From an uncultured Roseobacter sp. (GTDB lineage: Bacteria > Pseudomonadota > Alphaproteobacteria > Rhodobacterales > Rhodobacteraceae), in assembly GCA_947488305.1 (NCBI GenBank), contig CANKZM010000007.1:198860-262859 (forward strand): DNA of 64,000 bases, given 5' to 3'. The notes beneath the pieces are model-generated. The model was given only the letters and a program-made list of their open reading frames with translations, was not told the origin of the DNA and searched no databases. Shown here piece by piece: positions 25,828 through 31,050 of this stretch (position 1 is its first letter; each line of letters begins with the position of its first letter). Made by a program: the position numbers and the translations under genes.

Positions 25828-26014
25828 GTTTCCCGTGCCTCCTTCTGAATTAATTCGCTTCCGGTTGAGGAAACGACCTTTCTCTCGGCCATAACCGTGT
25901 GATGCCGAGCATTTCTACACAATAACAGATTGTTCTTTGCCTGGGAAAATCAAGTTAAAGGCGATGTATCGCCCTCAAAATTCCGTTAGGTGTTTGTCCA
26001 GATGGAGAAAAACT

Positions 26015-26332
26015 ATGCAACTATTTGGATTGAAAAACTGTGACACCTGTCGCAAGGCAATGAAGGCATTACCCAATGCGCAGCTCATCGACGTACGCGC
26101 TGAAGGGGTTCCCAAGGATATTCTGGTCGACGCTTTAGAACAATTTGGCGCAGCGCTTGTGAACACCCGGTCTACCACGTGGCGCGGTCTTTCGGAGGAG
26201 GAACGCAGCGCGGAGCCGCTCGAATTGCTCGCGGCACATCCTGCCCTGATGAAGCGACCGCTCATTGTTGACGGATCGCAGATGTATCTTGGCTGGACCG
26301 ATGACGTGAAGGCCGCTTTGGGCGCTGCCTGA
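26015..26332 (+). CDS. ArsC/Spx-family thioredoxin-fold protein
   Basis: 105 residues starting MQLFGLKNCDTC, with Cys9 and Cys12 in a CxxC at the thioredoxin-fold active site. The family includes arsenate reductases and Spx-like redox regulators; the short CDTC version with the later RPLIVDG motif is the YffB-like group, whose members are probably glutathione-dependent thiol proteins rather than true arsenate reductases. GGAG lies eight bases before ATG 26015. No arsenic genes nearby. Confidence 0.9.
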   Translation: MQLFGLKNCDTCRKAMKALPNAQLIDVRAEGVPKDILVDALEQFGAALVNTRSTTWRGLSEEERSAEPLELLAAHPALMKRPLIVDGSQMYLGWTDDVKAALGAA

Positions 26333-26339
26333 GCCGGGG

Positions 26340-26891
26340 TTAATCCGGATTATGTGAGAGGCGGGTCAGAGCGCGGTCCAATGACAGTGGTCCTGCGCCT
26401 TTCACCACTAGCACGATCAAGAGGAATATCCAGAACGTCCGCTGATCCATAATGACGCTGTCAGGAAAGCGGTCAAACCAGGCGCCGAAGGTCTCGGGGT
26501 GTTCCAGACCGCCATGGCCGATGAGGTCGGTCAGCGATTGCACGATCACAAAACCGATCATGCCAAGGGCAGAAAGACGGGTAAACAAACCCACGACGAT
26601 CAGCGCAGGCAGAATAAACTCCGCCCAGGTCCCGGCAACCACGACTGCCCAGTGGAACATGGTCAGTTGTGAGGTGTCATAGACGGCCGCCTCCATGGCT
26701 TTGGGGAAAATCTGGGCATAGGCACCCACTGATGGTTGGAAGATCCCCAGAATTCCGTCGCCTAGCTTGGTCAACCCGGATACCCAGAAGTAGATCAATA
26801 GCGTACCGGCAAAGATTGCACGGGCCAGCGTTGACAGGAGCCAATCCGCGCGGGAAAGCCCATCGGAGACGGCGTTGTATAGGGTAATCAT
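26340..26891 (-). CDS. bufD: DoxX-family membrane protein of a bufferin operon
   Basis: 183 residues with about four membrane helices and the DoxX/SURF4-like pattern FAGTLLIYFWVSGLTKL ... ILPALIVVGLFTRLSALG. It is the last gene of the four-gene operon, starting directly after the bufC stop with no gap. DoxX proteins accompany DUF2282/DUF692/DUF2063 genes in gold- and copper-induced operons; the exact role is not settled (a redox or membrane partner is the usual suggestion). Confidence 0.9.
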   Translation of the reverse strand: MITLYNAVSDGLSRADWLLSTLARAIFAGTLLIYFWVSGLTKLGDGILGIFQPSVGAYAQIFPKAMEAAVYDTSQLTMFHWAVVVAGTWAEFILPALIVVGLFTRLSALGMIGFVIVQSLTDLIGHGGLEHPETFGAWFDRFPDSVIMDQRTFWIFLLIVLVVKGAGPLSLDRALTRLSHNPD

Positions 26892-27644
26892 TCAGCGTTC
26901 CTTTGTAGTGTAGTCTGTCAAGGCGTGTGTTGTCAGCGCAAGCGTCAAAGTTTCTGTGAGGTCGAACGTCGGGTTGGACGAAAGAACCATATCCGTGGCC
27001 TCACCGAATGTCGCACCGGCATGGAGCCGTTCGAGCCAATCGATGCTTCCGGGTGGCAAAAGTGTTGGCTGCGGATCAAACTCAGGCCGGGTAATCATGA
27101 TGTCCTGCGCAATTGCGCGTGGCTTTGGAGCATCGGGTACCATGTTCAAACGCCATATATCGTGCAATGGCCACTTCGACCGAAGCAGTCGCGTTGCAGG
27201 TGCCAGCCTGGCCCGGGCCATCTGCCCGGCGTCCTCTCCTTGCAAGACGGACGGATCGAAAGGCGGCGCATCTGCCGCGTGGTAAGACTGTCGGAATGCC
27301 AGATCGAGCCGTGCGCAATCTGGCAAGTAGCCGATATGTTTCAGAGGTTCAAAATCCCGCAGGAAGTCCGGCAACGCTTCGCCGTAAAACATGATCAGAG
27401 GCGAATCCGGAGGATGAGCGCGCACAAAAACACCCGCCAGCTGCGCGAAGGCTTCAGTTCCAAGCAGCTTGCGTACGAGCGGAAATGCGGTCGCCAAGGC
27501 TTCTGAGAGCGAGACGATGACATTGTTACGGTAAACCGAAAAACGGGCCCCCGCGGGTCCACCGACAGCATTGTTCAAACCCGCGGGCACCGGTCTTTCT
27601 GCGTCCAGAAGTGCTTCGCGAAAACTACTTTGGGAGACGGTCAT
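26892..27644 (-). CDS. bufC: DUF2063 partner protein of a bufferin maturase
   Basis: 250 residues. The N-terminal half matches the putative DNA-binding-like DUF2063 domain ([17 protein letters not shown] ... [19 protein letters not shown]) and the C-terminal half is a second domain with [10 protein letters not shown]. Proteins of this type act as the partner that helps the MNIO enzyme recognise its precursor peptide. Start ATG 27644 overlaps the bufB stop (ATGA); the in-frame upstream extension lies inside bufB and is rejected. Confidence 0.9.
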
Positions 27645-28495
27645 TGAACTGGCTGCAGGGCTTTTGCCGCACGCTCTGCCTCGGCGCGCAGCACAGGCCA
27701 GTCTGGCACGTCGTTGTCCCATTCCACCAACACAGGGCGGGAGCCGGTCTTGCGCAACGTATAGTCCAGAAGGGCCCAAACCGGATCGACCACGGGCTTT
27801 CCATGACTGTCGATCAGAAGAGGCGCGCCTTGGTCATCGGAATCTTCGTCGTGCCCGCCCACATGGATTTCACCGACCGCATGCAAAGGGTATGCGTCCA
27901 CATAGCTTTGGGGCGAATAGCCGAGGTTCGTTGCTGAAATGAAGACGTTGTTTACATCCAGCAGCAATCCGCAGCCCGTACGTTTGACCAATTCGCTGAG
28001 GAAATCCGTTTCGCTCCACGTGCTTTCCTCGAATGCGAGGTAGCTTGATGGATTTTCCAGCAGCATCTGCCGACCAAGTTTATCCTGCACCTGCGTGATG
28101 TGGGATGCCACATGATCAAGCGTGGTGTCAGTATAGGGAAGCGGCAACAGGTCATTCATGAACTCTGCGCCATGGGTCGACCATGCAAGGTGTTCTGAAA
28201 AACTGGCCGGAGAGGTGCGCTCAATCAGAATATGCAACCGGTCCAGATGCTCAGTGTCCAATGGTTCCTGACCACCGATACTCAATCCTACGCCATGCAC
28301 GGAGAGCGCAAATCTCTCTTGCAGGGCGCGCAACTGTGCATGGGGTCTGCCGCCTTCGCCCATGTAGTTTTCTGCATGAACTTCGATCCAGGACACCGGA
28401 CCGGGGGTCTGCATCAGATCGTTGAAATGTTGTGGCTTGTAGCCCACGCCCGGAGCAGAGGGGAGGCGATCATTCTGAGGCGAGGTGTCAAGCAT
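27641..28495 (-). CDS. bufB: DUF692/MNIO maturase of a bufferin RiPP
   Basis: 284-residue TIM-barrel multinuclear non-heme iron-dependent oxidative enzyme. Expected metal ligands are all visible: His40/Glu42 (EVHAENY), His67 (HGVG), Glu101/His102 (SEHLAW), Glu147/Asn148 (ENPSSY), Asp180 with Asn183 (LLLDVNNV), Glu209/His211 and His215 (EIHVGGH), His231 and Glu258 (VEWD). Characterised relatives oxidise cysteines of DUF2282 peptides to thiooxazole-type heterocycles that bind copper. Placed between the precursor gene and bufC. Confidence 0.94.
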
Positions 28496-28537
28496 GGGGC
28501 TCTCCGAAGACTGCGGTCAGCCGTGTTTTTTTGGTAT

Positions 28538-28562
28538 GCGCCCGGCCCGTAGTGCCGGGCGC
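28538..28562 (-). promoter_or_regulatory. Intercistronic hairpin between precursor and maturase genes
   Basis: A perfect 9-bp GC-only stem (GCGCCCGGC / GCCGGGCGC) with a 7-base loop in the 81-base gap. On the coding (minus) strand it is followed by an A run, not a T run, so it is not a classical terminator; it would protect the 3' end of the precursor mRNA and raise its level over the enzyme genes. Confidence 0.6.
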
Positions 28563-28576
28563 TGCCAGAATTTGTC

Positions 28577-28879
28577 TTATGCAGGCAGATCGCGGTCAAG
28601 CTCTTCGAGGGAGCCTTGGCGTGGTGTGCCATCTGCCGTCGCAGGCAGTTCGATTTCCGCGCAAGTACCCTTGTCGACGAGCGTCCAGGCATTGCCCTGA
28701 TAGTCAACGGTGGACGTGCCGGCGCATGTCGTGCCTGGGCCTGCCGCGCAGTCGTTCGCGCCTGCCAGCGATACGCCGTAGCATTTCTCTTTTGCGGCGG
28801 CTTCTACTGTTGTCGTTTGTGCAGCGAAGGCCGCTGCAACAGCACTCGCGAGGGCGACGGATTTCATCGTGTTGGACAT
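28577..28879 (-). CDS. bufA: DUF2282 bufferin-type RiPP precursor
   Basis: 100 residues: a Sec signal peptide (about 1-28, cleavage near VEAAA), then the conserved DUF2282 core with four cysteines, Cys33 ([10 protein letters not shown]), Cys44 ([11 protein letters not shown]), Cys52 and Cys73 (DKGTCAEI). An acidic tail of about 25 residues follows. In described systems the cysteines are modified in the cytoplasm and the product is exported to bind copper. First gene of a four-gene operon; AGAGGAAT precedes the ATG. The 224-base upstream region contains TATAAC at about 28946-28941 on the coding strand but no good -35. Confidence 0.94.
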
Positions 28880-29029
28880 ATGATTATTCCTCTTTTGCGG
28901 GCCTGTCGGCCACCTGTTACAAGCCTTTCGGCTATCGGTGGGTTATATGTAACAAAGCTTGCGCAACATACCATTCACGAGCCTGTGTGTCACAGCCGCG
29001 TCAGATTTGGGTGACCTTTAAGGGGGAAT

Positions 29030-29103: not shown

Positions 29104-31050
29104 TTACAGCATATCGGGGGGCGTCGCCTCTCGACCAAGCGCTTGTGTTACAAGATCGAGAGCCTCAACAGAGGTTCTTTTTTCGCCCAGACGGCGAATA
29201 GTGACCGTGCGCTCTTCTACTTCGCGCGCCCCAACGGCGAGAATGACCGGGACTTTTCCAACCGAATGTTCGCGGACCTTGTAGTTGATTTTCTCGTTTC
29301 GCAAATCCGCTTCAGCGCGTACGCCCGCAGCTTTGAGGGTTTCCACGACCTCGGTCACATAGTTATCAGCGTCCGATATGATCGACGCCACAACGACCTG
29401 TCGCGGGGCCAGCCAGAACGGCAGTTTACCAGCCGAGTTCTCGATCAGAATACCTATGAAGCGCTCGAACGACCCCAGACAGGCGCGATGAAGCATGTAG
29501 GGGCGATGTTTTGCACCATCTTCACCAATGAATGTCGCACCAAGACGCTCGGGAAGGTTCGGGTCCACCTGGAATGTGCCGCATTGCCACTCGCGTCCGA
29601 TGGCATCTGTCAGTTTGAAGTCGAGTTTAGGTCCGTAAAACGCGCCTTCGCCTGCATCAAGTGTATAGGGATGGCCAGTTGCCTTGATCGCGTTTTCCAA
29701 CGCGGCCTCGACATGATCCCAGCTTTCCTCGGACCCGACCCGCTTTTCAGGCCGGGTGGCAAACATAATCTCGAACATGTCAAAACCGAGATCTTTGTAG
29801 ACCGACGACAAATAGGTGATGAATGCCGCGCATTCCGCCTCGATCTGATCTTCGCGACAGAAGATGTGCCCATCATCCTGAGTAAAGCCCCGCACCCGCA
29901 TAATCCCGTGTAGAGCGCCAGAGGGCTCATACCGGTTGCAAGAGCCAAACTCTGCCATCCGTAGGGGCAGGTCGCGATAGGACTTAAGCCCCTGATTGAA
30001 TATCTGCACGTGGCAGGGGCAGTTCATCGGCTTCAGCGCGTTGATCGCTTTTTCGCGCGCATGTTCTTCATCCACTTCGACGATGAACATGTGCTCCTGG
30101 TATTTGTCCCAGTGTCCTGAGGCTTCCCAAAGCTTGCGGTCGACGACTTGAGGGGTATTCACCTCCTGGTAACCCGCGGCGCGCTGCTTGCGGCGCATAT
30201 AGTCCTGCAAGGTGGTATAAATCGACCACCCGTTGGCGTGCCAGAAGACCTGACCGGGTGCTTCCTCCTGCATGTGGAAGAGATTCATCTCGCGGCCCAG
30301 TTTGCGGTGGTCGCGCTTGGCGGCTTCTTCCAGCATGTTGAGATGCGCGCGCAGTTTCTCTTTGCCGGTAAAGGCCACCCCGTAAATGCGCTGAAGCATG
30401 GCGCGATCACTGTCGCCACGCCAATAGGCACCAGCGATCGACATCAGCTTGAACGCATCACCCGGAACCTGACCTGTGTGCTGCAGGTGTGGGCCTCTGC
30501 AAAGATCCTGCCAGTCGCCGTGCCAATACATGCGCAGCGGCTCATCGCCCGGGATCGCCTCAATCAGCTCGACCTTGTAAGGCTCATTGTTGTCTTCGTA
30601 AAACTTGATCGCACGTTCTCGGTCCCAGACCTCAGTGATTACTGGTTCGCGCTTGTTGATGATCTCTTTCATCTTCTTTTCGATCAGGCCGAGGTCTTCG
30701 GGGGTGAAGGGCTCCTCCCGGTCAAAGTCGTAATACCAACCGTCCTTGATCACCGGGCCGATGGTGACCTTGGTGTCGGGCCAGATCTCCTGCACGGCGC
30801 GCGCCATTATATGTGCAAGGTCGTGGCGGACCAATTCGTTGGCCTGCTCTTCGTCCTGCATGGTGTGAATAGCGATACTGGCGTCATCTTTGATGGGCCA
30901 AGCCAGATCGTAATGCGCGCCGTTTACAGTCGCACTGATCGCCTTTTTGCGCAGTGAACTGGATATGCTCGCGGCGACATCGCCAGCGGTGACCCCGGCG
31001 TCGAAACTGCGGGCATTACCATCAGGGAAGGTGAGAGAGATCTGGGCCAT
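29104..31050 (-). CDS. thrS: Threonine--tRNA ligase
   Basis: 648-residue class II synthetase: TGS domain (1-60), editing domain with [10 protein letters not shown] and the second zinc-like HxxxH/Cys site, catalytic core with motif 2 (GLAR-type [21 protein letters not shown]), zinc ligand Cys in [10 protein letters not shown], and C-terminal anticodon-binding domain ending in LVTQALG. Full length; monocistronic with its own terminator. Confidence 0.99.

Follow-up and report, generated by a model that had tools for sequence, protein, structure and literature searches.

A Buf1 bufferin operon of an uncultured Roseobacter and the CenR-like site in its promoter

Bufferins are described as copper-stress peptides. 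Gene clusters for bufferins or captophorins (Buf1) share a four-cysteine precursor, a BufB-type MNIO enzyme, a partner protein of PME type 1 and a DoxX protein, and the reported chemistry consists of thiooxazoles on the two central cysteines and copper binding (PMC12452194, PMC12668002). The closest described operon is buf1 of Caulobacter crescentus (CC3254-CC3257), with the gene order DUF2282-DUF692-DUF2063-DoxX; sigma-F and the regulator CC3252 are encoded next door, and the promoters are of the form GTAACC-N16-CGAA (PMC3511200). One survey names a sigma factor and NrsF as regulators of Buf1 clusters (PMC12452194), and frequent transcriptional regulators of unspecified kind are noted for bufferin clusters in another account (PMC12668002). 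Here, we describe a Buf1 operon on a contig of an uncultured Roseobacter sp. (CANKZM010000007.1, positions 198,860 to 262,859), a stretch of 64,000 nucleotides referred to below as the window.

The operon consists of four open reading frames on the minus strand in the order bufA-bufB-bufC-bufD, encoding DUF2282, MNIO, DUF2063, and DoxX proteins, i.e., the same families in the same order as in Caulobacter. The initial annotation, made from the DNA letters alone, had read this set as a complete bufferin-type operon on one strand, and this is borne out: all four products match their profiles, the precursor that of DUF2282 and the enzyme also that of MbnB_TglH_ChrH (E 6.2e-105), and bufB passes the MNIO_BufB equivalog cut-off (Table 1). 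As a gene set, the locus is thus a complete Buf1 operon of a known kind. What is new is the promoter, which carries a conserved CenR-like site where Caulobacter uses a metal-stress sigma factor: in contrast to the Caulobacter system, the genome yields no NrsF, and two CenR-like dyads precede a sigma-70-like promoter. We consider it probable that CenR activates transcription of the operon through these two dyads and that the chemistry of its product is that of other bufferins.

Promoter architecture and likeness to the CenR box

The conserved block was found by aligning the DNA upstream of bufA within the genus. The operator pattern GTGANNCACNNNNNCGTGANTNG, written from these genus sequences, occurs without mismatch once per genome in 19/19 genus genomes, each time at bufA; because the pattern was drawn from bufA sites, its weight lies in its occurring nowhere else in these genomes. 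Twelve further copies with one mismatch were rejected as real sites, as their number is at chance level (19 matches with up to one mismatch in the reversed control); the single one opened, L143, sits in coding DNA. Across the family Rhodobacteraceae, the core CACG-N4-CGTG is found exactly in 49 of 108 upstream stretches (L116, one of 109, was dropped), compared with a mean of 0.58 and a maximum of 3 in letter shuffles and none in the reversed control. At seven of eight letters it is found in 98/108, a count for which no control was run.

Among 187 family upstream sequences, eight shared the same last 150 nt, leaving 179 distinct ones, most of which follow one of two architectures. In the first, the dyad is followed by GTAAC, the -35 element of sigma-F (22/179). 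In the second, termed type B, it is followed by nT(G/T/A) at -80 to -130 (119/179, including the window); the T at the first place of the -35-like element was part of this selection. Two features of type B were not selected for: a second dyad 15 bp upstream of the first, and a (C/T)TAnnnT element at offset 36 (48/119) or 37 (17/119). In the alignment of these 119 promoters the dyad adjoins the -35, with the positions of -35, -10, and start being deduced ones and the near-palindromic dyad giving a weak indication of direction. Relative to the deduced promoter, the bufA dyad is centred at about -43; in the window, transcription is predicted to begin close to 28938. A comparable arrangement is known from the srlA promoter of Sinorhizobium meliloti, where the inverted repeat AGTCAC-N6-GTGACT has its centre at -42 beside the -35 and where mutations in its arms reduce promoter activity, which depends on cenK and cenR directly or indirectly (PMC9561847). 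Judged by these deduced coordinates, the bufA dyad nearly coincides in position with the srlA repeat.

Rhodobacter sphaeroides has an essential two-component system of the envelope with CenR as its response regulator. For CenR, 31 sites are listed, of which 28 adjoin a -35, and CenKR homologs group together in a supported clade of Rhodobacterales (PMC9275681). Among the listed sites, TGACGCGGGCGTGAA belongs to an L,D-transpeptidase gene, ACACGAGCGCGTGAG to cenR, and TGGCGCGAGCGTGAT to msrA (PMC9275681). A matrix built on these 31 sites yields the consensus TCACGAAATCGTGAT, which is the bufA dyad, and the dyad had been found before that table of sites. The matrix scores at least 10 in 126 of the 179 family bufA promoters (200 nt upstream) and in 3.2% of first-order shuffles. 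In a control set of 108 loci, taken before duplicates were removed, the same score is reached by 67/108 promoters, 1/107 coding stretches, and 0/59 far-upstream stretches; when the five published sites closest to the dyad are left out of the matrix, the counts at this threshold are 58/108 promoters and 1/107 coding stretches. When the whole window is scanned on both strands, the 15-mer at 28989-29003 ranks first, and ranks 3 (a plus-strand reading of the inner dyad at 28975) and 8 fall in the same block. As a sequence match, a CenR box is therefore present in the bufA promoter. The site shares its box sequence, and by the deduced promoter elements probably also its place beside the -35, with the CenKR regulons of R. 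sphaeroides and S. meliloti (PMC9275681, PMC9561847) but differs from them in having two boxes at a spacing of 15 bp.

Several observations weigh against CenR as the regulator. The window score is not exceptional (7 of 20 composition-matched random windows reach an equal maximum), and each of the two window dyads has one imperfect arm. Antisense scores are as high as sense scores (at least 10 in 140/179), because the dyads are near-palindromic, and the published CenR motif is a direct repeat, TGA-N8-TGA (PMC9275681). In the genus, the strict form TCACG-N4-CGTGA shows no excess, with 31 occurrences and 38 in the reversed control. Two architectures do not account for all promoters, as 38/179 fit neither (23 of these keep a seven-of-eight-letter dyad and 15 are without one), and the loci share descent, so that promoter counts are not independent. 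None of the 31 targets listed for R. sphaeroides, a species that was not checked for the operon, is named as a bufferin gene, and the dependence of srlA on cenK/cenR is reported as direct or indirect (PMC9561847).

Candidate regulators of the operon

Under activation by CenR, the phosphorylated protein would bind both abutting dyads, the inner of which would lie beside a weak sigma-70 -35, and would recruit the sigma-70 polymerase and thereby activate the operon. Transcription would continue across the bufA-bufB gap, whose stem-loop may favour the precursor. BufC would bind BufA with its recognition domain, and the iron enzyme BufB would modify the two central cysteines of BufA, yielding thiooxazoles as in the literature. 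BufA would then be exported by Sec and hold copper in the periplasm, with DoxX as an accessory membrane protein. The sigma-F/NrsF pair would drive the operon neither here nor in most NrsF-less Rhodobacteraceae. The initial annotation had left regulation open; the range of candidates is narrowed by the two-dyad CenR-like site together with the absence of NrsF. Because of these two features, inducers established for gig and buf operons elsewhere are not simply transferable to this organism.

The stronger of two alternatives, although an unlikely one in our estimate, is that the dyads are bound by a different regulator whose site is similar, such as ChvI, a further OmpR-type protein, or a dedicated metal sensor. 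The boxes of OmpR-type regulators are short and resemble one another. Within the genus the operator pattern is confined to bufA, and the chvI promoter contains an imperfect version of the S. meliloti repeat (PMC9561847). However, when the 40 largest clusters of open reading frames near the operon were inspected by eye in 59 family loci, no regulator was found in more than four loci (NrsF in four, an ArsR-like reading frame in three), and a matrix from CenR sites derived by chromatin immunoprecipitation separates bufA promoters from controls. Further genes preceded by dyads also resemble the CenR list.

These further genes emerged from a search with the tandem pattern at up to one mismatch, which occurs in 70/295 family genomes and not at all in the reversed control. 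Twenty places were opened, chosen mainly for not being known bufA sites; the others were not all compared with bufA. Of these, 11 were assigned to bufA by script, MNIO genes accompanied by thrS are seen in three (L277, L279, and L284), and six lie elsewhere. The site in L274 precedes an L,D-transpeptidase gene (Pfam YkuD), and that in L273, which comprises three dyads, precedes MsrA (Pfam PMSR) with an export signal recognized by eye; both gene classes also occur in the R. sphaeroides CenR list. In L269 the gene behind the site encodes, by eye, an OmpA-like lipoprotein, and in L275 a protein whose start is twin-arginine-like and which matches no Pfam family; a provisional assignment of the latter as a YHS protein was not confirmed by Pfam and was dropped. 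The site in L270 lies inside the coding DNA of a cbb3-oxidase-like gene (by eye). In L271, close CenR-like dyads at position 1978 of the reverse strand stand without an evident target gene.

A gene for an exported DUF302 protein, present in 19/19 genus genomes (L304-L322; own copy at G000:C3:597238), is likely a second target of the regulator that reads the bufA dyads. Its upstream DNA contains a strict single dyad in 6/19 genomes, a CenR matrix score of at least 10 in 14/19, and the core CAC-N6-GTGA at -63 to -84 in 19/19, a constancy that close relatedness explains in part; all 19 loci were taken by coordinates, that of L312 with an offset start. The single strict dyad elsewhere in the window's own genome is placed 113 nt ahead of a gene whose product has a twin-arginine-like start and which is followed by a ferric-reductase-like gene. 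Outside the family, the matrix scores at least 10 in 10 of 25 loci, eight of them without a sigma-F motif (six loci, L220, L237, L240, L241, L242, and L245, had been dropped from 110, so that 79 of 80 named loci and 25 of 30 loci from other families were kept). Since three pairs among these ten are near-copies and five sites lie at -160 to -179, a greater distance from the start than family sites show, the dyad's use outside Rhodobacteraceae is a lead rather than a result.

The second alternative is control by an extracytoplasmic function (ECF) sigma factor and its anti-sigma factor as in Caulobacter, with the dyads in an auxiliary role. Caulobacter has the same gene order under sigma-F, and the window promoter contains a loose sigma-F-like match. 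Yet no match to the NrsF profile PF06532 was obtained in the own genome, where all 23 candidates were scored; sigma factors, including ECF factors with other anti-sigma proteins, were not searched. In the family, NrsF exceeds the cut-off in 40/295 genomes and DUF2282 is present in 211/295. A comparison of the 91 family loci for which NrsF had been searched, a set that excludes 17 genus loci and in which relatedness is uncorrected, links the promoter type to NrsF: the sigma-F motif occurs at 13/22 NrsF-positive loci and at 1/69 NrsF-negative loci, the latter being the loose match of the window, whereas tandem dyads occur at 0/22 and 40/69, respectively. A single dyad at seven of eight letters is present in both groups (20/22 and 60/69); its frequency at NrsF-positive loci speaks for this alternative. 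We consider ECF control of the present operon quite improbable.

In a tree of 112 MNIO proteins (FastTree, midpoint root, the root itself not tested), 17 of 21 NrsF-positive family operons fall in one clade and the window with most NrsF-less operons in another, six changes of NrsF state being needed; dyads occur in both clades, and the NrsF-positive locus L040 is missing from the printed tree. Plasmid-borne copies were also considered. Five of the 352 matching plasmid records were opened, the fifth region being without annotation. All four annotated regions (4/4) contain genes for a sigma-70 factor and NrsF/DUF1109, about 3 kb off in the case of Gemmobacter, and in these four regions no gene is named as copper-related.

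Activation by CenR would place the bufferin in a wider context. It is about an even call whether the peptide serves as an effector in a general response to envelope stress, CenKR having replaced the metal-responsive sigma-F/NrsF pair across most of the Rhodobacteraceae and perhaps also in further alphaproteobacterial lineages that lack a sigma-F motif at bufA. The peptide would then be made upon damage to the periplasm or wall, copper being one cause among others, together with L,D-transpeptidase, MsrA, and the exported DUF302 protein. If so, a widespread metal-binding peptide would be part of the programme by which a major marine group maintains its envelope, wall or periplasmic stress should induce the operon without added copper, and the operon would offer a handle on what CenK senses. 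Among the papers listed in a literature search, none joined CenR or CenKR with MNIO enzymes or bufferins.

Operon products and genomic surroundings

Table 1. Genes and sequence elements of the bufferin locus in the window
Feature	Coordinates	Strand	Description
bufA	28577..28879	-	Buf1/DUF2282 bufferin precursor, 100 aa; PF10048 E 1.8e-24
bufB	27641..28495	-	MNIO maturase, 284 aa; NF050167 MNIO_BufB equivalog 374.5 bits, cut-off 310
bufC	26892..27644	-	DUF2063 partner protein of MNIO, 250 aa; PF09836 E 2.3e-24
bufD	26340..26891	-	DoxX-family membrane protein, 183 aa; PF07681 30.9 bits, cut-off 23.6, E 4.4e-07
Outer CenR-box-like dyad	28990..29003	-	TGACG-CGGC-TGTGA; part of pattern match 28971-29003, none in 100 shuffles
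Inner CenR-box-like dyad	28975..28988	-	ACACA-GGCT-CGTGA; 15 bp downstream of outer dyad, abutting it
Putative -35-like element	28968..28973	-	TGGTAT; one base after inner dyad; from family alignment of 119 type-B promoters
Putative -10-like element	28946..28951	-	TACATA; from type-B alignment; window copy not exact TAnnnT
GC stem-loop	28538..28562	-	9-bp stem within bufA-bufB gap; possible setter of precursor/enzyme ratio

The precursor BufA contains cysteines at positions 33, 44, 52, and 73, exactly as initially annotated, and its N-terminus resembles a signal peptide when judged by eye. Exactly four cysteines follow residue 22 in 187/187 family precursors, a count in which the first two are partly built in because the precursors were picked with a cysteine-containing pattern. 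The C-terminal tail after the last cysteine (window 28580-28615) is strongly conserved, a relaxed form being found in 159/187 family precursors, and BufC could read it as its recognition sequence, which would make it a follower rather than a leader.

The structural relatives of BufB are 3BWW, MbnB, and 8hci_D. For its metal ligands, the motifs containing His, Glu, Asp, and Asn correspond to those of 3BWW and partly to those of MbnB, a comparison at the level of motifs rather than residue by residue; in the related enzyme HvfB, N175, D242, and H244 are needed for activity (PMC13419390). BufC, whose predicted model has a pLDDT of 93.4, combines DUF2063 with a recognition domain, the composition of a PME type 1 partner. 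A Foldseek search with this model gave three matches with E < 0.001, namely 8hci_A and 8hi7_A (TglHI) and 3dee (NGO1945), and both the TglHI chains and NGO1945 are treated as MNIO partner proteins in a survey (PMC12452194). The NCBIfam HvfC model scores BufC at 33.8 bits, below its cut-off of 142.

An ATGA overlap joins bufB to bufC, and bufC and bufD abut with zero gap. The tight joins of the initial annotation therefore hold for these three genes and not for bufA and bufB, which are separated by 81 nt (28496-28576). Stems of at least 8 bp, differing in sequence, occur in the corresponding gaps of 32/77 named relatives, in 1.2% of shuffles, and in 0/237 coding controls. The folding energy of the gap is ordinary (z -1.4 for the window; z < -2 in 22/77 relatives), and the view of the gap as exceptional in folding energy was rejected; only the long perfect stems stand out. 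The stem-loop may favour precursor over enzyme.

Upstream of bufA, thrS (29104-31050) lies on the same strand as the operon. It also adjoins the operon in L277, L279, and L284, and an open reading frame shadowing thrS recurs upstream in 26/59 family loci; on account of these recurring neighbours the operon seems to occupy a conserved chromosomal place. At the other end, a gene of the ArsC family (25937-26332) converges on the 3′ end of the operon, with no link to it seen. Scans of the window for Rfam families (at gathering scores) and for tRNA genes gave no matches. The own genome contains one MNIO and one DUF2282 match, and DUF2282 is present in 19/19 genomes of the genus, in 211 of the 295 of the family, and in 100/289 of the class. 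The closest named MNIO protein in the scan, from an uncultured Roseobacter, is 84% identical.

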